Shown here one piece after another: positions 10,880 through 22,236 of a DNA stretch of 64,000 nt. A program made the translations under genes and the position numbers. Where the stretch lies: positions 1,364,001 to 1,428,000 of the forward strand of contig NZ_CADFDB010000001.1 in the NCBI RefSeq assembly GCF_902832845.1, written 5' to 3'. Source of the DNA: Burkholderia metallica. Its GTDB lineage: Bacteria; Pseudomonadota; Gammaproteobacteria; Burkholderiales; Burkholderiaceae. The notes under the pieces are model-generated. The model was not told the origin of the DNA. It saw only the letters and a program-made list of their open reading frames with translations, and searched no databases. The stretch's first letter is position 1; the number at the start of each line of letters is the position of its first letter.

Positions 10880-13306
10880 TCAGTGCGCGGCCTCCTGCCT
10901 GATCCGCGCCGACGCTTGCGTGAGATTCGGCCATGCCGGCTGCCCCGGCGCGTAGCGCGCGCGGATGTAAGCGGCGAGTTCGGCCATCTGCCGATCGTCG
11001 AATGCGTCGCCGAAGCCCGGCATGTAGCCGAGCGCGCCGGTGGCCGGCTGGTCGATCCCGTGATGCAGCACGCGCAGCAGGTTGTCCGGCGCGGCCTGGC
11101 TGACGCTCGTATTGAGCCCCATCAGCGGGCGGACGCCCAAATGCCCGACGCCGCCCGATTCCGCATGGCAGACCGCGCACGCGGCGTCGAAAGCGCGGCG
11201 ACCGTTCTCGAGGCCCAGCGTCGCGACGGCTTCCGCGCCCCGCGCGTGCCGCGCGGCCGCGTCGGCGGCGGCCGCCGCATCGACGGGCGGCGACAGCGAC
11301 GCGAGATAGTGCGCGATCGCCCGGACGTCGGCCTCGGGCAGCGACGCAAGCCCCGCGACGACGGGCGCCATCGGCCCTGCCGCGACGCCGTGTTGCGCGG
11401 AGAAGCCCGTGCGCAGGTAGTCGAACAGCGCGCCTTCCGTCCACGGCACCGGCGCCGCCGCCGACGCGACGAGCGGCGGCGCGACCCATCCCTCGGCTGC
11501 GCCGCCCGACAGGTAGGCGCGCCCGCCCCGCTCCGCGCCCAGCGCGTTGCGCGGCGTGTGGCACGCGCCGCAGTGCCCGGCGCCGTCGACCAGGTACTTG
11601 CCGCGATTCCACATCGCGGAGCGTGCCGGGTCCGGCGCGAACGGCCGCGCATCGTGATACAGCCAGTTCCAGCCGGCGACGAGGCGCCGCCGGTCGAGCG
11701 GGAACGGCAGCGTCGTCTTCGGCGGCGCGTGCTTCACGGCCGGCTGCGACATCAGGTACGCATAGAGCGCGAGCAGGTCCGGCTCGCTCAGCTTCGCGAA
11801 CGCCGTGTACGGGAACGCCGGGTACAGGTGCGTGCCGTCGCGCGAGATGCCTTCCCGCATCGCGCGCGCGAACGCCGGATACGACCACGCGCCGATGCCG
11901 GTTTCCGGATCGGGCGTGAGGTTGGTCGTGTAGATCGTGCCGAACGGCGTATCGAGCGCGAGCCCGCCCGCGTTGGTCGCGCCGCCCGGCGCGGTGTGAC
12001 ACACCGCGCAATCGCCGGCGAGCGCCACCTGACGGCCGCGCTCGAGCGTCGCCGCGCTCCACATCGCGCCGTCCGCGCCGCCGGTCGTCACGGGGGCGAT
12101 CGGCGCGGGGCCCGGCAGGATCGCGCATGCGAGACCGATCAGCCCGCCGACCACGCCGCCCACGCCGCCGCCGGCCAGCCAGCGGCGCCAGCGCGACGCA
12201 CGGCGCGGGGCGCCCTGTGGCCCTTCGCCGGCATCGACCGGCACCGGCCGCGCCAGCGCCGCGCGAATGCGCGCGGCATCGAACGGCGGTGCGCGAAACC
12301 GCACGCCCGTCGCGTCGTACAGCGCGTTCGCGATCGCCGCCGCGGCCGGCGCGGCCGCCTGCTCGATCCGGCGTGCATCGTGCGCGGACAGTTCGCCGTG
12401 TGCGCGATGCGCGGTGGCGTCGAGCGCCACCAGTTCGTGTGCGATCGCGTCCGGCGGCGTGCCCGCGCCGGGTTCGTCATGCGCGGGCCGCGCGGACAGG
12501 CGCGCACCCATCACGCGCGAAATCGCCGCCTCGATCTGCCACGCCGGCAAGCCGGCCATCGATGCGGCGCCCGGCTCGCCGGCGCCCTGCCCGGCCACGA
12601 CGCGCCGCACCGCGACGTCGCCCGTCGTGCGGTCGACGTCGAGATCGACGACCCATGCGGACCACTGCGCAGCGCCGTCGTGTCTCTCGGCGGCGGCAGC
12701 AGCAGCGGCCGGTGGCGTGTTGCCGGACGGTGCGACGGCGCCGTCGAAAGCGAAACCGCGCCCGCTCAGGCGCGCCTGCGCACCTGGGTCGATCGCGGCC
12801 GGCGCGCCCCATGCGGCGCGTTCGCTGACCATCCGGATGATTTCGCGCGGCCCCGTGTCCCGCGCCGCATCGAGATGCTGCAGGCGCAACGCGACCGGGT
12901 CGCGCCGCAACGCGCCCGCGAGTTCGTCGACGAAGGATTCGCGCGCGAACGCATGCGCGTGCCCGGGAATCGCGTGGCCGGCGTCGGCGAGTTCGATCGA
13001 CGTCTGCGCGTGCCGGTAGACGAACGGCGCGACGGGGGCGGGTTCCGCGCGCTCGGTCTTGGCGCCATGCGGTGCGTGAAGATCGTCCGTGGCCGCCCGC
13101 GCGCGATAGCGCCAGGTCGTCATCCGTCCGTCGGACGCGGTCCGCGTTTCGACGTCGAGCGATACCTGCGCGCCTGCATGCGCATCTCCGAGCGGCCATG
13201 TGTAGCGCGCATGGTGCGCGCACAATGCATCGACGCTAACGTCATCGCGCGGCTCGGGTAACGTGACGCGCGCCGGCGCGACGGGCAGGCCTGCGTCAGG
13301 CTTCAT
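10880..13306 (-). CDS. NicB-like protein: degenerate molybdopterin half-domain fused to three cytochrome c domains
   Basis: An 808-residue protein matching the C-terminal two thirds of NicB, the large subunit of nicotinate hydroxylase. Residues 1-360 resemble only the second half of the molybdopterin domain (ESFVDELAGALRRDPVALRL, later AAAIANALYDATG). The GxGE block with the catalytic glutamate, present in the full subunit at 19026, is not visible here. A membrane helix lies at about 377-397. Three heme sites follow: CAVCH at 433, CGACH at 579 and CAVCH at 710. The hemes should pass electrons to the respiratory chain. The start overlaps the end of nicA by 11 bp. It is probably the electron-transfer partner of the separate molybdopterin subunit rather than a catalyst; that role is inferred. 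Confidence 0.8.
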   Translation of the reverse strand: MKPDAGLPVAPARVTLPEPRDDVSVDALCAHHARYTWPLGDAHAGAQVSLDVETRTASDGRMTTWRYRARAATDDLHAPHGAKTERAEPAPVAPFVYRHAQTSIELADAGHAIPGHAHAFARESFVDELAGALRRDPVALRLQHLDAARDTGPREIIRMVSERAAWGAPAAIDPGAQARLSGRGFAFDGAVAPSGNTPPAAAAAAAERHDGAAQWSAWVVDLDVDRTTGDVAVRRVVAGQGAGEPGAASMAGLPAWQIEAAISRVMGARLSARPAHDEPGAGTPPDAIAHELVALDATAHRAHGELSAHDARRIEQAAAPAAAAIANALYDATGVRFRAPPFDAARIRAALARPVPVDAGEGPQGAPRRASRWRRWLAGGGVGGVVGGLIGLACAILPGPAPIAPVTTGGADGAMWSAATLERGRQVALAGDCAVCHTAPGGATNAGGLALDTPFGTIYTTNLTPDPETGIGAWSYPAFARAMREGISRDGTHLYPAFPYTAFAKLSEPDLLALYAYLMSQPAVKHAPPKTTLPFPLDRRRLVAGWNWLYHDARPFAPDPARSAMWNRGKYLVDGAGHCGACHTPRNALGAERGGRAYLSGGAAEGWVAPPLVASAAAPVPWTEGALFDYLRTGFSAQHGVAAGPMAPVVAGLASLPEADVRAIAHYLASLSPPVDAAAAADAAARHARGAEAVATLGLENGRRAFDAACAVCHAESGGVGHLGVRPLMGLNTSVSQAAPDNLLRVLHHGIDQPATGALGYMPGFGDAFDDRQMAELAAYIRARYAPGQPAWPNLTQASARIRQEAAH

Positions 13307-13799
13307 CGTCGCCTCGCAGATAGCGCGCCGCGCGCTGCACGGCCCGGATGATCTCCAGGTGCGTGCCGCAGCGGCACAGGTTGAAGCGCAACGCATCGCG
13401 GATCGCCGCATCGTCCGGGGCCGGATTGCGGTCGAGCAGCGCCTTCGTGCTCATGATCATCCCGTTCAGGCAGTAACCGCATTGCGCGGCCTGCTCGTCG
13501 ATGAACGCGCGCTGGATCGGATGCGGCGCGTCGCGCGAGCCGAGCCCTTCCAGCGTCGTGACGTCGCGCCCGTTCGCGGCGGCGGCCGGCACGACGCACG
13601 AACGCGTCGCCTGCCCGTCGACCAGCACCGTGCATGCGCCGCACTGCCCGAGCCCGCAGCCGTATTTCGGGCCGTTGAGCGCGCAGTCGTTGCGCAGGAC
13701 CAGCAGCAGCGGCGCATCGGGCGCCGCGTCGTCGAAGGTGTGCGGCGTGCCGTTCACGCGAAACGCCGGCGGCCGCGACAAAGAAGCGGAATGGGACAT
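13296..13799 (-). CDS. nicA: Nicotinate hydroxylase iron-sulfur subunit
   Basis: A 167-residue two-cluster [2Fe-2S] protein of the xanthine dehydrogenase family. The plant-type ferredoxin cysteines occur in KYGCGLGQCGAC plus a later Cys, and the second cluster is bound by CGYC and CRCG in the helical C-terminal domain. In nicotinate hydroxylase it carries electrons from the molybdenum site to the cytochromes of NicB. It overlaps the NicB-like gene by 11 bp, which indicates translational coupling, and follows nicC on the same strand after 176 bp. The ATG at 13799 gives the usual length. Confidence 0.88.
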   Translation of the reverse strand: MSHSASLSRPPAFRVNGTPHTFDDAAPDAPLLLVLRNDCALNGPKYGCGLGQCGACTVLVDGQATRSCVVPAAAANGRDVTTLEGLGSRDAPHPIQRAFIDEQAAQCGYCLNGMIMSTKALLDRNPAPDDAAIRDALRFNLCRCGTHLEIIRAVQRAARYLRGDDEA

Positions 13800-13975: not shown

Positions 13976-15215
<1,240 letters not shown>

Positions 15216-15359: not shown

Positions 15360-15431
15360 AGACTTTGCTCGACATCAGGCGATCCCGCGCCAGCGCATCG
15401 CCCCACTCTTACCGACACGGAGCCTCCCGTC

Positions 15432-16184
15432 ATGAGCAAGACCTACCGCATCGGCCAGATCGTGCCGAGTTCCAACACGACGATGGAAACCGAGATTCCC
15501 GCGATGCTGCGGCTGCGCGAAGCGATCCGTCCCGAGCGCTTCACGTATCACTCGAGCCGGATGCGGATGAAGAAGGTCGTCAAGGAAGAACTCGCGGCGA
15601 TGGACGCCGAATCCGACCGCTGCGCGGTGGAACTGAGCGACGCGCGCGTCGACGTGCTCGGCTATGCGTGCCTCGTCGCGATCATGGCGATGGGGCACGG
15701 CTACCACCGCGTGTCGCAGGCGCGCCTGACGAGGCACACGGCCGACAACGGCGCGCAGGCGCCGGTGCTGACGAGCGCCGGCGCGCTCGTCGACGCGCTG
15801 AAGGTGATCGGCGCGAAGCGGATCGTCGTCGTCGCGCCGTACATGCTGCCGCTCACCGAACTCGTGGTCGACTACATCCGCAACGAAGGCTTCGACGTGC
15901 TCGCGTACCGCGCGCTGGAAATCCCCGACAACCTCGACGTCGGCCGCCACGACCCGGCGCGCCTGCCCGACATCGTGAAGACGCTGCCGTACCGGGACGC
16001 CGATGCGATCGTGCTGTCCGCGTGCGTGCAGATGCCGTCGCTGCCGGCCGTCGCGAAGGTCGAGGCGATGACGGGCAAGCCCGTGATCACGGCCGCGATC
16101 GCGACGACCTACGCGATGCTGCGCGAACTCGACCTCGAACCGGTCGTGCCCGGCGCCGGCGCGCTGCTGTCCGGCGCGTACTGA
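15432..16184 (+). CDS. nicE: Maleate cis-trans isomerase
   Basis: A 250-residue protein of the Asp/Glu racemase superfamily matching maleate isomerase NicE. The two cysteines expected at the active site are Cys80 (GYACLVAIM) and Cys198 (SACVQMPS). The N-terminal IGQIVPSSNTTMETEI is characteristic of the group. It converts maleate to fumarate, the last step of aerobic nicotinate degradation. It opens the rightward nic unit; nicD follows after 27 bp. The ATG at 15432 follows a GGAG-like site. Confidence 0.92.
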   Translation: MSKTYRIGQIVPSSNTTMETEIPAMLRLREAIRPERFTYHSSRMRMKKVVKEELAAMDAESDRCAVELSDARVDVLGYACLVAIMAMGHGYHRVSQARLTRHTADNGAQAPVLTSAGALVDALKVIGAKRIVVVAPYMLPLTELVVDYIRNEGFDVLAYRALEIPDNLDVGRHDPARLPDIVKTLPYRDADAIVLSACVQMPSLPAVAKVEAMTGKPVITAAIATTYAMLRELDLEPVVPGAGALLSGAY

Positions 16185-16211: not shown

Positions 16212-17042
16212 ATGCCCTCGACTTTCCTGTACGGCGCGAACGTCCGCGCCAACGGCATCCGCCAGCACTATCTGCGCTACGGCGGCGCGACCGGCGCACG
16301 CGCGGCGCGCCCGGCGATCGTGCTGATTCCCGGCATCACGAGCCCCGCGATCACGTGGGGGTTCGTCGGCGAAGTATTCGGCGCGGCGTTCGATACCTAT
16401 GTGCTCGACGTGCGCGGGCGCGGGCTGTCCGACGCGTCGCCGTCACTCGACTACGGCCTCGACGCGCAGGCCGACGACGTCGCGGCGCTCGTCGCCGCGC
16501 TCGGCCTGCCGCGCACGAGCCTCGTCGGCCATTCGATGGGGGCGCGGATCGCCGCGCGCGCCGCGCGACGCGGCATCCGCGGCCTCGCGTCGGTCGTGCT
16601 CGTCGATCCGCCCGTGTCGGGCCCGAACCGGCGCGACTATCCGGGCAAGCTGCCGTGGTACATCGACTCGATGGCGCTCGCGCGCGCCGGCACCGACGCC
16701 GACGGCATGCGCGCGTTCTGCCCGACCTGGACCGACGCCGAACTGCAGTTGCGCGCCGAATGGCTGCACACCTGCGACGAGCGCGCGGTGCGCGCATCGT
16801 ACGAAGGGTTTCATACCGACGATTTCCACGCGGACGCCGCGCAACTCGCGGTGCCGTCGCTGCTGATCACGGCCGAGCGCGGCGACGTGGTGCGCGACGA
16901 CGACGTCGCCGAGCTGCAGCGCGCGACGCCGTCGATGCGGCACGTGCGCGTGCCCGACGCCGGCCACATGATTCCCTGGGACAACGCACCGGGCTTCTAC
17001 GCGGCGTTCGGCGACTTCCTCGGCGCGCCGCTCGCGGCCTGA
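16212..17042 (+). CDS. nicD: N-formylmaleamate deformylase
   Basis: A 276-residue alpha/beta hydrolase. The nucleophile elbow is GHSMG with Ser108, the oxyanion region is IPGITSPAITWG, and the late DAGHMIPWDN supplies the catalytic His. Length and motifs fit NicD, which splits N-formylmaleamate into maleamate and formate. It sits between nicE and nicX as expected for the pathway. An ATG with a GGAG-type ribosome site opens the frame. A generic hydrolase could look similar; the cluster position decides the call. Confidence 0.9.
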   Translation: MPSTFLYGANVRANGIRQHYLRYGGATGARAARPAIVLIPGITSPAITWGFVGEVFGAAFDTYVLDVRGRGLSDASPSLDYGLDAQADDVAALVAALGLPRTSLVGHSMGARIAARAARRGIRGLASVVLVDPPVSGPNRRDYPGKLPWYIDSMALARAGTDADGMRAFCPTWTDAELQLRAEWLHTCDERAVRASYEGFHTDDFHADAAQLAVPSLLITAERGDVVRDDDVAELQRATPSMRHVRVPDAGHMIPWDNAPGFYAAFGDFLGAPLAA

Positions 17043-17089
17043 TCGCGCGGCGCCCGCCCCTTTCCTTCACGCCTTTACCGGAGCCGACG

Positions 17090-18130
17090 ATGCCAGTCAG
17101 CGACATTCAACTGATCGACGCGTGGAAGCAGGTGCTCACGCTGTCGCGCCTCGAACCGGGCCAGACCGTCACGATCCTGACGAGCGCGGCCACCCACCCG
17201 CAGACGCTGTCGTGCGCGCTGATCGCGACGCAATCGATGGGCGCCATCGTCAACCGGCTCGACCTGCCGCCGGTAAACGGCGACAAGGCGTTCAGCCGCG
17301 ACCCGCTCGCGTATCTCGGCACGACGCCGCTGACCGGCAACCGCGCGGCGATCGCCGCGCTGCGCGAGAGCGACCTCGTGCTCGACCTGATGACGCTGCT
17401 GTTCTCGCCCGAACAGCACGAGATCCTGAAGGCCGGCACGAAGATCCTGCTCGCGGTCGAGCCGCCCGAAGTGCTGGTGCGGATGGTGCCGACGCTCGCC
17501 GACCGCACGCGCGTGCTGGCCGCGGCGAAACGGATCGCCGCCGCCCGCGAGATGCGCGTGACGTCGGCGGCCGGCACCGCGCTCGTGTGTCCGCTCGGCG
17601 AGTTCCCGCCGACGGCCGAATACGGCTTCGTCGACGCGCCGGGCCGCTGGGACCACTGGCCGAGCGGCTTCGCGCTGACCTACCCGAACGACCGCACCGC
17701 GCGCGGCACGATCGTGATCGATCGCGGCGACATCCTGCTGCCGCAGAAGCACTACGTGAGCGAGCCGATCGCGCTGACCGTCGAAGGCGGCTATGCAACG
17801 CGCATCGAAGGCGGCGTCGACGCAGACCTGCTGCGCGACTACATGGAGACCTTCGCCGACCCCGAAGGCTATGCGATCTCGCATGTCGGCTGGGGGCTGC
17901 AACCGCGGGCGCGCTGGTCGACGCTCGGGCTGTACGACCGGGAAGCGACGATCGGGATGGACGCACGCGCATTCGAGGGCAACTTCCTGTTCTCGCTCGG
18001 CCCGAACAACGAAGGCGGCGGCAACCGCACGACCACCTGCCACATCGACATCCCGCTGCGCCGCTGCACGGTCGAACTCGACGGCGCAACCGTCGTGCGC
18101 GACGGCCGCGTGACCGATCAACCCGCGTGA
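17090..18130 (+). CDS. nicX: 2,5-dihydroxypyridine 5,6-dioxygenase
   Basis: A 346-residue protein matching NicX, a ring-cleaving Fe(II) dioxygenase that opens 2,5-dihydroxypyridine to N-formylmaleamate. It belongs to a distinct metallopeptidase-like family and not to the common extradiol enzymes. Conserved blocks include PPTAEYGFVDAPGRWDHWP and, near the C-terminus, His- and Asp-rich segments (AISHVGWG, TTTCHIDIP) likely to bind iron. The start is an ATG at 17090 after GGAG, 47 bp after nicD. The family is known from few pathways, so this gene strongly marks nicotinate degradation. Confidence 0.92.
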   Translation: MPVSDIQLIDAWKQVLTLSRLEPGQTVTILTSAATHPQTLSCALIATQSMGAIVNRLDLPPVNGDKAFSRDPLAYLGTTPLTGNRAAIAALRESDLVLDLMTLLFSPEQHEILKAGTKILLAVEPPEVLVRMVPTLADRTRVLAAAKRIAAAREMRVTSAAGTALVCPLGEFPPTAEYGFVDAPGRWDHWPSGFALTYPNDRTARGTIVIDRGDILLPQKHYVSEPIALTVEGGYATRIEGGVDADLLRDYMETFADPEGYAISHVGWGLQPRARWSTLGLYDREATIGMDARAFEGNFLFSLGPNNEGGGNRTTTCHIDIPLRRCTVELDGATVVRDGRVTDQPA

Positions 18131-18149: not shown

Positions 18150-18803
18150 ATGAACGATCTTTCCCGCCACGCCGAAGCGAACGTCTATCGCCAGCAGGGT
18201 TTCGGCACGCCGCTGCCGCCGCACGGCAACCTCGGCCTGCTGATCGTCGACTTCGTGGTCGGCTTCGCCGATCCCGCGACGTTCGGCGGCGGCAACATCG
18301 CGCCGGCGATCGCGCGCACGACGCATGCGCTCGCGCTCGCCCGCGCACGCGGCTGGCCCGTCGCGCACAGCCGCATCGTGTATGCGGACGACGGCAGCGA
18401 CGACAACGTGTTCTCGCTGAAGGTGCCCGGCATGGCGACGCTGACCGAGCACCATCCGAACAGCGCGATCGTGCCGGAGCTCACGCCGGCGCCAGGCGAA
18501 CTCGTCGTGCGCAAGACCGTGCCGTCGGCGTTCTTCGGCACCCAGCTCGCGCCGTGGCTCGCGCAGCGTGCAGTGCAGACGCTGCTCGTCGCGGGTGCCG
18601 TGACGAGCGGCTGCGTGCGCGCGAGCGTGGTCGACGCGATGTCGCACGGGTTCCGTCCGCTCGTGCTCGCCGACTGTGTAGGCGATCGCGCGATTGCGCC
18701 GCACGACGCGAACCTGTTCGACATGCAGCAGAAATACGCGGCGGTGATGCCGCTCGACGATGCGGTCGCCGCGATCGATGCGATGCACGCGCGCACGCGC
18801 TGA
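18150..18803 (+). CDS. nicF: Maleamate amidohydrolase
   Basis: A 217-residue isochorismatase-like cysteine hydrolase with the triad Asp34 (LLIVDF), Lys122 (VRKTVPSAF) and Cys155 (TSGCVRAS). In the nicotinate pathway it hydrolyses maleamate to maleate and ammonia. It lies 19 bp after nicX. Length and motif spacing are normal for NicF. It is the last catabolic step before nicE. Confidence 0.91.
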   Translation: MNDLSRHAEANVYRQQGFGTPLPPHGNLGLLIVDFVVGFADPATFGGGNIAPAIARTTHALALARARGWPVAHSRIVYADDGSDDNVFSLKVPGMATLTEHHPNSAIVPELTPAPGELVVRKTVPSAFFGTQLAPWLAQRAVQTLLVAGAVTSGCVRASVVDAMSHGFRPLVLADCVGDRAIAPHDANLFDMQQKYAAVMPLDDAVAAIDAMHARTR

Positions 18804-19025: not shown

Positions 19026-21320
19026 GTGAACCGCTCCGAACTGCTCGCGCGCGACGGCTGCCTGACCGTGATCCGGCCGCCCCCGCCGCCCGTCAAGCCG
19101 GCGCCCGGCCAGCCGGGCAGCCTGTCGTCCTACGTGCCGGCGCTGCCCGAGGTGTTCGTCGCGATCCTCGACGACGGCCGCATCCTCGCATTCAACGGCC
19201 ACGTCGATCTCGGCACCGGCATCCGGACGTCGCTCGCGCAGATCGTCGCCGAGGAACTCGACGTGCCGGCCGCGCGCGTGACGATGGTGCTCGGCGACAC
19301 CGCCGCGACACCGAACCAGGGCCCGACCATCGCGAGCGCGACGATCCAGATTTCCGCGGCACCGCTGCGCTGCGCCGCCGCGCAGGCGCGTCACGCGCTG
19401 CTCGCGCTCGCCGCCGAACGGTTCGGAGCAGACGCGGCGCAACTGCACGTCGACGACGCGACGATCTCGGCGAACGGACACACGGCAACGTTCGCCGCGC
19501 TCGTCGCCGCGCGCCGGATCGCGCTGACGCTGGACCTGAGCACCCGCACGAAGGACCCCGCCCGATACCGGATCGTCGGCCGTTCGTCGCCGCGCGTCGA
19601 CCTGCCCGCGAAGGCGACCGGCCAGCTCACGTTCGTGCACGACGTGCGCGTGCCGGGCATGCTGCACGGCCGCGTCGTGCGGCCGCCGTATGCGGGCCAC
19701 GACAGCGGCGCATTCGTCGGCACGTCGCTCGTCGACGTCGACCGCGCGTCGGTGGCCGACGTGCCGGGGCTCGTGGCCGTCGTGACGATCGGCGATTTCG
19801 TCGGCGTGGTGGCCGAGCGCGAGGAACACGCGATCCGCGCGGCGCGGCAGTTGCGCGTGACGTGGCGGCCGCTCCCCGTGCTGCCGCCGCTCGACGAGCC
19901 GGCCGCCGCGATCGCCGCCGCGCCGGCCACGCGCCGCGTGCTGCTCGATGAAGGCGACGTCGACGCCGCGCGTGCGCAGGCCGACACGATCACGCTGTCG
20001 CGCACCTATGCGTGGCCGTACCAGATGCACGGCTCGATCGGCCCGTCCTGCGCGCTCGCCGACTACCGCGCGCCCGGCTGCGGCCGGATCACCGTGTGGT
20101 CCGGCACGCAGAATCCCGTGTCGCTGCGCTACGACCTCGCGACGCTCATCGCGCGCGACGAAGCCGATTTCGACGTCGTGCGGATGGAAGCGGCCGGCTG
20201 CTACGGCCGCAACGGCGCGGACGACGTATGCGGCGACGCGCTGCTGCTGTCGCGCGCGGTCGGCCGCCCGGTGCGCGTGCAGCTCTCGCGCGCGGACGAA
20301 CATCTGTGGGAACCGAAAGGCACGGGCCAGCTGATGCAGGTGACCGGCACCGTCACGCGCGACGGCCACCTGCTCGGCTACGACTTCACGACGCGCTATC
20401 CGTCCAACGACGCGCCGCTGCTCGCGGCGCTGCTGACCGGCGCGATCGCGCCCGGGCCGCGCGTGTTCGAGATGGGCGACCGCACGGCCGTGTCGCCGTA
20501 CGCGAGCCCGCATCGCCGCTTCGTCTGCGAGGATCTCGCGCCGCTCGTGCGCGCGTCGTGGCTGCGCGGCGTGTCGGCGCTGCCGAACTCGTTCGCGCAC
20601 GATGCGTTCGCCGACGAATGCGCGGCGCTGACCGGCGTCGATCCGCTCGCGTTCCGGCTGCGTCATCTGCAGGATGCGCGCGCGATCGAACTGCTGCAGG
20701 CGGTGGCCGAGCGCGCGGGTTGGACACCACGTGTGCCGCGCCAAGATCGCGAGCGCGACGGGTCGCGGCACGTGCACGGCCGCGGCATCGCGTACGCGCG
20801 CTACGTCCACAGCCGCTTCCCCGGTTTCGGCGCGGCGTGGTCGGCATGGATCGTCGACCTGAGCGTCGATCGCGTGTCGGGCGAGATCCGTATCGAACGC
20901 GTCACGGTCGGCCAGGACACGGGCACGATGATCAATCCCGACGGCGTGCGCCATCAGATCCACGGCAACGTGATCCAGGTATTGAGCCGCACGCTGAAGG
21001 AGCGCGTGCGCTTCGCCGACGGCAAGGTCGCGTCGCGCGAATGGGCGAGCTATCCGATCCTCACCTTCGCGGAAGTGCCGGACGTCGACGTCGTGCTGAT
21101 GCCGAGGCAGGGCGAGCCGCCGCTCGGCGCGGGCGAATCGGCGTCGGTGCCGGGCCCCGCCGCCGTCGCGAACGCGTTGTTCGATGCGACCGGCGTGCGG
21201 TTCTACGCGCCGCCGTTTACGCCGGAGACGGTCCGCGCCGCGTTGCGCGACGCAGGCCGGTTGATGACGGTCGGTGCGGTCGATGCGGTCGGTGCGCAAA
21301 CGGCAGCCGGCACGGTCTAG
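19026..21320 (+). CDS. nicB: Molybdopterin-binding catalytic subunit of a xanthine-dehydrogenase-family hydroxylase (NicB-type)
   Basis: A 764-residue molybdenum subunit with both halves of the domain: an N-terminal GHVDLGTGIRTSL segment, GCYGRNGADD (a cofactor-binding loop), ESA-type linkers, and near the C-terminus GAGESASVPGP containing the catalytic glutamate. This is the part missing from the cytochrome-bearing NicB-like protein in the opposite unit. Together with NicA and that protein it should hydroxylate nicotinate at C6 using water. No twin-arginine signal is seen. The start is GTG with AGGA upstream. It lies 222 bp after nicF. Because NicB of Pseudomonas is one fused chain, the symbol is applied here by domain only. 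Confidence 0.8.
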   Translation: MNRSELLARDGCLTVIRPPPPPVKPAPGQPGSLSSYVPALPEVFVAILDDGRILAFNGHVDLGTGIRTSLAQIVAEELDVPAARVTMVLGDTAATPNQGPTIASATIQISAAPLRCAAAQARHALLALAAERFGADAAQLHVDDATISANGHTATFAALVAARRIALTLDLSTRTKDPARYRIVGRSSPRVDLPAKATGQLTFVHDVRVPGMLHGRVVRPPYAGHDSGAFVGTSLVDVDRASVADVPGLVAVVTIGDFVGVVAEREEHAIRAARQLRVTWRPLPVLPPLDEPAAAIAAAPATRRVLLDEGDVDAARAQADTITLSRTYAWPYQMHGSIGPSCALADYRAPGCGRITVWSGTQNPVSLRYDLATLIARDEADFDVVRMEAAGCYGRNGADDVCGDALLLSRAVGRPVRVQLSRADEHLWEPKGTGQLMQVTGTVTRDGHLLGYDFTTRYPSNDAPLLAALLTGAIAPGPRVFEMGDRTAVSPYASPHRRFVCEDLAPLVRASWLRGVSALPNSFAHDAFADECAALTGVDPLAFRLRHLQDARAIELLQAVAERAGWTPRVPRQDRERDGSRHVHGRGIAYARYVHSRFPGFGAAWSAWIVDLSVDRVSGEIRIERVTVGQDTGTMINPDGVRHQIHGNVIQVLSRTLKERVRFADGKVASREWASYPILTFAEVPDVDVVLMPRQGEPPLGAGESASVPGPAAVANALFDATGVRFYAPPFTPETVRAALRDAGRLMTVGAVDAVGAQTAAGTV

Positions 21321-21366: not shown

Positions 21367-21813
21367 TCACGCGTCGCCGTCTTCGTCCATCATCTTGCGC
21401 AGCAGGAACTGCAGCGCGACCCGTTCGCCCGGATTGAGCGTGCCATACGTGCGCTCCGTCACCTGCCGCGCGAACGGCACCGTGCGGTCGATCAGCGCGA
21501 GGCCCGTAGCGGTCGCGCGCACGATCAGCTTGCGGCCGTCGTTCGGATCGGGCAGCACCTCGACCAGTGCACGCGCCTTCAGTCGATCGACCACGCCGCG
21601 AATCGTCGCCTGGTCGATCGCGGTTGCCTTGACGATGTCGTTGAGCGAGCACGCCTGGCGCTCCTTGACCGCGCACAGCGTGACGAACTGCGCGGCCGTG
21701 AGATCCGAATCGGGGATCGCTTCCTGGAAGATCGACACGTGCCGCTGATACGCGCGGCGCAGCAAGTGCCCGATCTGATCGTGAAAGTCGTAGGAATCCT
21801 TCGAAGACGCCAT
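21367..21813 (-). CDS. nicR: MarR-family regulator of nicotinate degradation
   Basis: A 148-residue MarR protein with a winged helix at about 30-100 (LNDIVKATAIDQATIRGVVDRLKARALV followed by the wing NDGRKLIVRAT) between helices used for dimerisation. Its place between the nic catabolic genes and nicT fits NicR, which in Pseudomonas represses nic promoters until 6-hydroxynicotinate is present. It converges with the molybdopterin subunit gene, leaving 46 bp between stops. I chose the ATG at 21813; a longer frame to 21912 would cover a GTGTAC site. Autoregulation is plausible. Confidence 0.85.
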   Translation of the reverse strand: MASSKDSYDFHDQIGHLLRRAYQRHVSIFQEAIPDSDLTAAQFVTLCAVKERQACSLNDIVKATAIDQATIRGVVDRLKARALVEVLPDPNDGRKLIVRATATGLALIDRTVPFARQVTERTYGTLNPGERVALQFLLRKMMDEDGDA

Positions 21814-21853
21814 GAAAGTGCAGGCCCACGCCGCATGTAAGGGAAAGACAAGC

Positions 21854-21865
21854 AGTGTACACCCT
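21854..21865. promoter_or_regulatory. GTGTAC palindrome upstream of nicR
   Basis: AGTGTACACCCT contains the core GTGTAC common to the other nic sites and lies about 40 bp before the nicR start. The match outside the core is poor. It could serve autoregulation. Confidence 0.3.
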
Positions 21866-22236
21866 CCATTCGGCGCGACCGGCCGGCGGGGTGCCGCTTC
21901 ATTGCGGTGCATCAGGATGCGCGGTGGTCAGCGCGCGGTGCGCCCGACGATCGCCCGACACGGCTTGCCTCGTCCGCCGCGCGCGTCGCCGCGACTGGCG
22001 CCGCCGCAGGGGCAAGCCGGTTTCCGCGCAGATGCTCGAGCGCATTGGCAGACTTCCGTTCACACACTCTACTTTTAAGCGCATACGCACGAATTTTGCG
22101 CATGCCGCCCGCACCTGTCCTCTTCTTATAAATCGTACGACTTTCCGTAAAAAACCTCGTTCCAAACGCAGTTTTTCACACGTAAACACCCTCCTCACGG
22201 CGGCCGGATTCATGCCTGTGCGATTCGGTATTTTCT
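21866..22236. other. AT-enriched intergenic control region between nicR and nicT
   Basis: Together with the two flanking sites this is a 535-bp gap between divergent genes. It has no convincing gene. The part at about 22070-22200 is clearly AT-richer than its surroundings (runs such as TTCTTATAAATCGT and GTAAAAAACC), suggesting promoters and a long leader for nicT. Confidence 0.4.

Follow-up and report, generated by a model that had tools for sequence, protein, structure and literature searches.

A retained pseudo-molybdopterin domain on the haem subunit of a putative three-subunit nicotinate hydroxylase in Burkholderia metallica

A 64,000-nucleotide stretch of the 7.55-Mb Burkholderia metallica genome (assembly GCF_902832845.1, contig NZ_CADFDB010000001.1, positions 1,364,001 to 1,428,000; hereafter the window) encodes on its minus strand, at 10880-13306, NicB2, the putative haem subunit of a three-subunit nicotinate 6-hydroxylase (NicA, NicB1, and NicB2). 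Ahead of its membrane helix and three haems, NicB2 retains part of a molybdenum cofactor (MoCo) domain, and this pseudo-molybdopterin remnant probably serves as a cytosolic docking module for a soluble NicA-NicB1 pair. The computed support consists of a conserved pairing with NicB1, the loss of most active-site motifs, the predicted fold, and selection on the structured parts, together with one origin on a concatenated tree and an association with the absence of a signal for twin-arginine translocation (Tat).

The three haems and one membrane helix described in an initial annotation of this DNA were borne out by the frame translation and the hydrophobicity profile: the 808-residue protein carries CxxCH motifs at residues 433, 579, and 710, and its single hydrophobic segment begins at residue 379 (Kyte-Doolittle score, 1.89). 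With three CxxCH motifs, an upstream membrane helix, and an 8gy3_A-like fold, NicB2 falls among the three-haem membrane cytochrome c subunits; it is not a single-chain NicB, as the combination of a complete MoCo domain and three haems is absent from the chain. NicB2 lacks the GxGES motif, which is found at residues 701-705 of the separate, 764-residue NicB1. The features of the NicB2 gene are:

10880..13306, minus strand: three-haem cytochrome subunit of NicB2 type, 808 amino acids, with a pseudo-molybdopterin domain at the N-terminus
12251..13225, minus strand: pseudo-molybdopterin remnant, residues 28-352; GxG of GxGE deleted, most other active-site motifs absent
12116..12172, minus strand: membrane helix, residues ~379-397, with an Arg-rich stretch before it; N-terminus predicted inside
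10883..12046, minus strand: three-haem cytochrome c region, residues 421-808, homologous to 8gy3_A
11996..12010, minus strand: CxxCH haem motif 1, residue 433
11558..11572, minus strand: CxxCH haem motif 2, residue 579
11165..11179, minus strand: CxxCH haem motif 3, residue 710

The partial molybdopterin half proposed in the initial annotation was confirmed, and proved to be made up of two separate MoCo-domain segments, a short one bearing YxWP (NicB1 residues ~322-336) and a second corresponding roughly to NicB1 441-745. The ~100 residues between them, missing here, are still present in Caballeronia and the Halomonadaceae. The kinship of the remnant with MoCo domains is indicated by a BLAST match to NicB1 (33% over NicB1 521-731, E 4.7e-14), by the family alignment, and by the predicted fold; the model of NicB2, predicted as a single chain, folds with good confidence and corresponds in part to a MoCo-domain fold. 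Neither MoCoBD_1 nor MoCoBD_2 of Pfam matched the window NicB2 at E<=1, the NCBIfam model PaoC matched it at 9.5e-5, far below the family cut-off, and of the motifs that would place it in the xanthine-oxidase family, GxGE was not found and the cofactor-binding ones are mostly lost.

What was kept and what was lost became clear in a comparison of 63 remnants with 82 catalytic sequences, from which one locus with a broken NicB2 frame (L078) was left out. Agreement of the remnants with the catalytic consensus, taken per 20-residue bin, was 0.24-0.89 over NicB1 521-640 and 701-740, and only 0.06-0.16 over NicB1 641-700, the old active-site stretch. There are 238 positions conserved at >=97% in the catalytic sequences; 33 of these persist in >=80% of the remnants, and are common to those of Burkholderiaceae and Halomonadaceae. 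The residues Q362, N363, C392, Y393, N396, Q644, and N648, on the other hand, persist in 0-2%. In 63/63 remnants Arg replaces His525, which is conserved throughout the catalytic set, and D and E occupy positions 664 and 665; these remnant-specific fixed residues hold for the 63 rows only, position 525 being R, R, Q, Q, and S in five more distant remnant genomes. The GxGE segment, initially reported as not seen, has lost its GxG in all 63; the catalytic-glutamate column itself, however, holds Glu in 25 (including the window, where the spacing to the following NALYDATG is unchanged) and Asp in 14. A GGGES in one locus (L070) was considered as a surviving catalytic motif and rejected, as the match sits away from the catalytic site.

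The pairing with NicB1 was examined in 90 loci, comprising the window, 10 picked among 40 listed of 706 plasmid-collection records, and 79 from the best 80 of 537 relatives in a species-genome scan. Remnant-type haem subunits are encoded in 64 and fused NicB in 25, while one (L094) is cut at a contig end and was left out of the NicB1 set; because the loci were chosen for their similarity, 64 versus 25 is not a census. The three haem motifs are in frame in 63 of the 64 remnant-type loci, and a NicB1 gene stands beside NicB2 in every one: in 59 the same locus holds NicB1 as a frame of more than 500 bits, and in the other five NicB1 is truncated by the locus end, leaving 249-331 N-terminal residues. 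GxGES was seen in NicB1 of 57 of those 59, the proteins of L045 and L051 being cut by the locus end, and all 25 fused loci have GxGES with a complete MoCo domain. In the loci examined, NicB2 lies directly behind nicA, as does fused nicB. An even sample of the order gave close matches in 16 of 399 genomes, at 17 places (seven remnant-type, six fused, and four bare cytochromes). In 7/7 remnant-type genomes checked, one of them from the class sample and some possibly overlapping the 90 loci, NicB1 lies no more than ~12 kb away on the same contig.

Several of these loci show peculiarities of their own. In Cobetia crustatorum (L078), NicB2 is split over several frames beside an intact NicB1, reflecting either sequencing error or real loss; on a plasmid of Halomonas sp. 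PA16-9 (L011), the NicB2 C-terminus departs from that of relatives beyond the third haem, as though through a frame change near the end. Paraburkholderia fungorum (L029/L075) and P. aspalathi (L028/L091) each have one genome in which a fused NicB-like paralogue coexists with the split nicotinate type.

Selection preserves the structured parts of the pseudo-MoCo domain. The ratio of nonsynonymous to synonymous substitution rates (dN/dS) in the structured remnant segments is 0.11-0.24, close to the values of the cytochrome and of the NicB1 counterparts, and the former cofactor-loop region (residues 244-276) is likewise constrained (0.24). The leader, loops, and linker evolve at 0.35-0.96.

The domain has been shortened by degrees. 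In Halomonadaceae, Caballeronia, and five other genomes the remnants can be aligned from about NicB1 residue 200-215 onwards, and in Burkholderia, Paraburkholderia, and Pandoraea most of NicB1 205-440 is also gone, apart from the short YxWP piece. The first ~200 residues of the MoCo domain are missing from all profiled remnants, and ~440 from those of the window's group; the stretch before the first haem measures ~600-650 residues in most Halomonadaceae and ~420-460 in Burkholderia and allies. In a concatenated tree of 47 rows (haem columns plus MoCo columns from NicB1 or fused NicB; LG+G4 without a mixture model), which assumes that NicB1 and NicB2 were inherited together, the 23 remnant-type rows form one clade (100/98) among fused NicB, and fused Paraburkholderia paralogues are its nearest fused relatives (93/99). 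The shared breakpoint also favours one origin. Fused, long-remnant, short-remnant, and remnant-free forms together make an evolutionary series available for study.

As to how the split arose, duplication with complementary loss appears the simplest route, since the MoCo domain is complete in NicB1 and a second one survives in part in NicB2. On this view the gene of an ancestral one-chain NicB was duplicated. The distant copy would have become NicB1, retaining the molybdenum domain without the haems, whereas the nicA-adjacent copy would have become NicB2, retaining the membrane helix and haems while its molybdenum domain was stripped of the leading ~200 residues and of most of the active site. 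A grouping of remnants with NicB1 was sought in a tree of the shared C-terminal half and was not seen; in that tree a branch of length 1.66 parts all catalytic sequences from the remnants, and because this long branch sets the remnants apart, we infer duplication from gene content instead.

Net charge is higher before than after the membrane segment in 88 of 89 remnant-type or fused proteins, which predicts a cytosolic remnant and periplasmic haems. A Tat pattern was found in none of 59 NicB1 proteins or six further ones, in none of 86 NicA proteins, and, among fused NicB, in none of 24 of the 25 or of seven further, one (L093) giving a weak Tat-like match. Conversely, in relatives whose three-haem cytochrome is remnant-free, the MoCo subunit has a twin-arginine signal in 9/9 loci of eight genomes (L213, L214, L193, L194, L167, L186, L191, L192, and L205, two of them in one genome, G269). 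Five of these nine calls were made by script and four by eye (L167, L186, L191, and L192); reading by eye covered those four, and other script negatives were left at the script call. In L213 and L214 the MoCo subunit shares 51-53% identity with NicB1. The survey took 60 of 91 listed places, of which 12 had a cytochrome match, nine of them three-haem; L171, L196, and L198 have two-haem cytochromes on the opposite strand and a MoCo protein without Tat pattern, and by our judgement were not counted as partners. The other 48 places, without such a cytochrome match in the stretch, showed the script Tat pattern in 16 and none in 32. The remnant is associated with the absence of a Tat-type signal (Fisher p 1.2e-12, ignoring the kinship of loci). 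With Tat export, the redox subunits would all come together in the periplasm, with no call for a cytosolic part.

The reading of the remnant as a docking module follows from this topology, because NicA and NicB1 should stay cytosolic and, apart from the remnant, the haem subunit has little that would lie in the cytosol. Predicted to be folded and to face the cytosol, this pseudo-molybdopterin domain would dock the soluble, signal-less NicA-NicB1 pair at the membrane and replace the covalent link of fused NicB. Dead enzyme domains retained as scaffolds are known elsewhere. Since many relatives are dimers, the pseudo-domain may also be the dead half of a NicB1-NicB2 pseudo-dimer. Of the two possibilities raised in the initial annotation, a scaffold that docks the separate molybdopterin subunit has become better supported than decay, although the docking itself is a prediction.

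Several observations weigh against this reading. Not every active-site residue is lost, since Glu occupies the catalytic column in 25/63 remnants. When whole-gene dS is used, the structured remnant segments give 0.15-0.25 versus 0.12 for the cytochrome, and in five of five clades the rate for the entire remnant core exceeds that for NicB1 (0.15-0.37 versus 0.09-0.20). Cytochrome-only trees do not recover the single origin, placing Pantoea-type fused NicB beside Burkholderiaceae remnant types; the several independent splits at which they hint were nonetheless rejected, as a single remnant clade on the haem columns is compatible with the data (approximately unbiased test, p 0.42) and the concatenated tree gives one clade. 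Membrane segments reach a Kyte-Doolittle score of 1.6 in only 46 of 89 proteins. The Tat test is a pattern search partly by eye, its nine positive cases are mutually related, and the existence of split relatives without a remnant indicates that the remnant is not needed in general. Finally, cytosolic molybdenum and iron-sulphur subunits with periplasmic haems and a single helix between them leave the electron path unexplained, and the same holds for fused NicB; unless the topology is wrong, a quinone or some other carrier would have to take part in electron transfer.

Among the alternatives, a functional module with another role, such as NicA binding, assembly or cofactor insertion, or stabilisation of the cytochrome, is unlikely, if the least so. 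The position of NicB2 directly behind nicA, shared with fused nicB, would suit it, and the selection and fold data are silent on the partner; NicB1, however, accompanies the remnant in every locus examined, and the same-family cytochrome 8gy3_A does without such a domain. Slightly less credible is decay, in which an in-frame leftover is tolerated upstream of a needed cytochrome and slowly deleted. The open frame alone is no evidence against it, because loss of frame would kill the cytochrome, and both the shortening of the pre-haem stretch from Halomonadaceae to Burkholderia and allies and the relaxed leader, loops, and linker speak for it. The structured segments, by contrast, are constrained nearly as the cytochrome and NicB1 counterparts are, 33 positions are kept across both families, and the model folds with good confidence. 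The initial suggestion of decay consequently stands for the leader, loops, and linker and for the further shortening in the Burkholderia-Paraburkholderia-Pandoraea group, but not for the structured segments.

That the remnant still binds cofactor or carries a second active site we consider very improbable. The Glu in the catalytic column, the constraint on region 244-276, and the invariant D664 and E665 could be taken in its favour, but the GxG and most of the remaining active-site motifs have disappeared, and at least the first ~200 domain residues are missing from all profiled remnants. An assembly error, a frameshift, or a broken fused nicB, the first two of which the initial annotation had named as grounds for withdrawing its claim, is excluded for practical purposes, and nothing at this locus speaks in its favour: the same form, with three haem motifs in frame in 63/64, is common to 64/90 loci of several genera, and is thus more than a chance product.

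A broader proposal, which we put forward tentatively, is that the remnant is a pseudo-molybdoenzyme subunit selected as the cytosolic receptor for NicA-NicB1, with which NicB1 would form a pseudo-dimer. A MoCo-like cytosolic domain and Tat export would then be alternative routes for joining molybdenum and haem, and the nicotinate type would have to pass electrons from cytosolic molybdenum to periplasmic haems. The same considerations raise, for the standard NicAB enzyme, the questions of which side of the membrane holds the molybdenum centre and by what route electrons reach the haems.

The genome that contains the window has its closest hits in Burkholderia. A nicotinate-degradation cluster surrounds the NicB2 gene, with the pathway gene names partly assigned by context. 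NicB2, NicA, and NicC-like genes lie on the minus strand and NicE-, NicD-, NicX-, and NicF-like genes and NicB1 on the plus strand, with a MarR regulator beyond:

13296..13799, minus strand: NicA, [2Fe-2S] subunit; 11-base overlap of its end with the NicB2 gene; no Tat-like signal
13976..15133, minus strand: NicC-like FAD monooxygenase (family search; name by context)
15423..16184, plus strand: NicE-like maleate isomerase / Asp-Glu racemase-type protein (NCBIfam; name by context)
16212..17042, plus strand: NicD-like alpha/beta hydrolase (NCBIfam; name by context)
17075..18130, plus strand: NicX-like 2,5-dihydroxypyridine dioxygenase (zero NCBIfam matches; name by position only)
18150..18803, plus strand: NicF-like isochorismatase-family amidohydrolase (NCBIfam; name by context)
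19026..21320, plus strand: NicB1, complete molybdopterin subunit, 764 amino acids, GAGES at 701-705; no Tat-like signal
21367..21912, minus strand: MarR-family regulator (NCBIfam), true start probably inside the frame; BpsR name by position

The presence of nicA, nicB2, and a separate nicB1 among nicC, nicE, nicD, nicX, nicF, and a MarR gene is the gene set of a tripartite nicotinate hydroxylase. Gene order in Paraburkholderia largidicola is identical, and the regulator is annotated BpsR there. The NicB2 gene does start inside nicA, as initially annotated: its ATG (13306-13304) and the nicA stop (13298-13296) give an overlap of 11 bases, which is ordinary in operons.

NicB of the Pseudomonas putida KT2440 type is a single-chain nicotinate dehydrogenase subunit B. 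Such fused relatives (L016-L018 and others) share with the window NicB2 a homologous haem region, the place of the membrane segment, and a gene directly behind nicA; their MoCo domain, however, is complete and carries GxGES (25/25), whereas that of NicB2 is cut and lacks the motif. The split into NicB1 and NicB2 is already published: the excerpts consulted describe a tripartite nicotinate hydroxylase (NicA, NicB1, and NicB2) in Burkholderia gladioli and Bordetella (PMC10269826) and list nicB1 and nicB2 in Delftia (PMC4572682). Likened on gene set alone, these systems have the same genes as the window, with a similar order in Delftia; the same excerpts of the two accounts make no mention of a remnant domain. 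In the open-access literature, searched by title or the start of the abstract, we found no description of a dead domain kept as a scaffold in a molybdenum hydroxylase, nor did we find the maintained pseudo-domain, the graded series, or the link to missing Tat export in print. PaoC of Escherichia coli (5g5h) is a MoCo subunit with its own partner subunits, haem-free and, by its entry title, periplasmic, and in these respects is unlike NicB2. In the membrane aldehyde dehydrogenase of Gluconobacter oxydans (8gy3), the 444-residue cytochrome chain 8gy3_A matches only NicB2 383-803 and thus lacks a MoCo remnant; NicB2 and NicB1 are homologous to the cytochrome and large subunits of that enzyme, and NicA to its small subunit.
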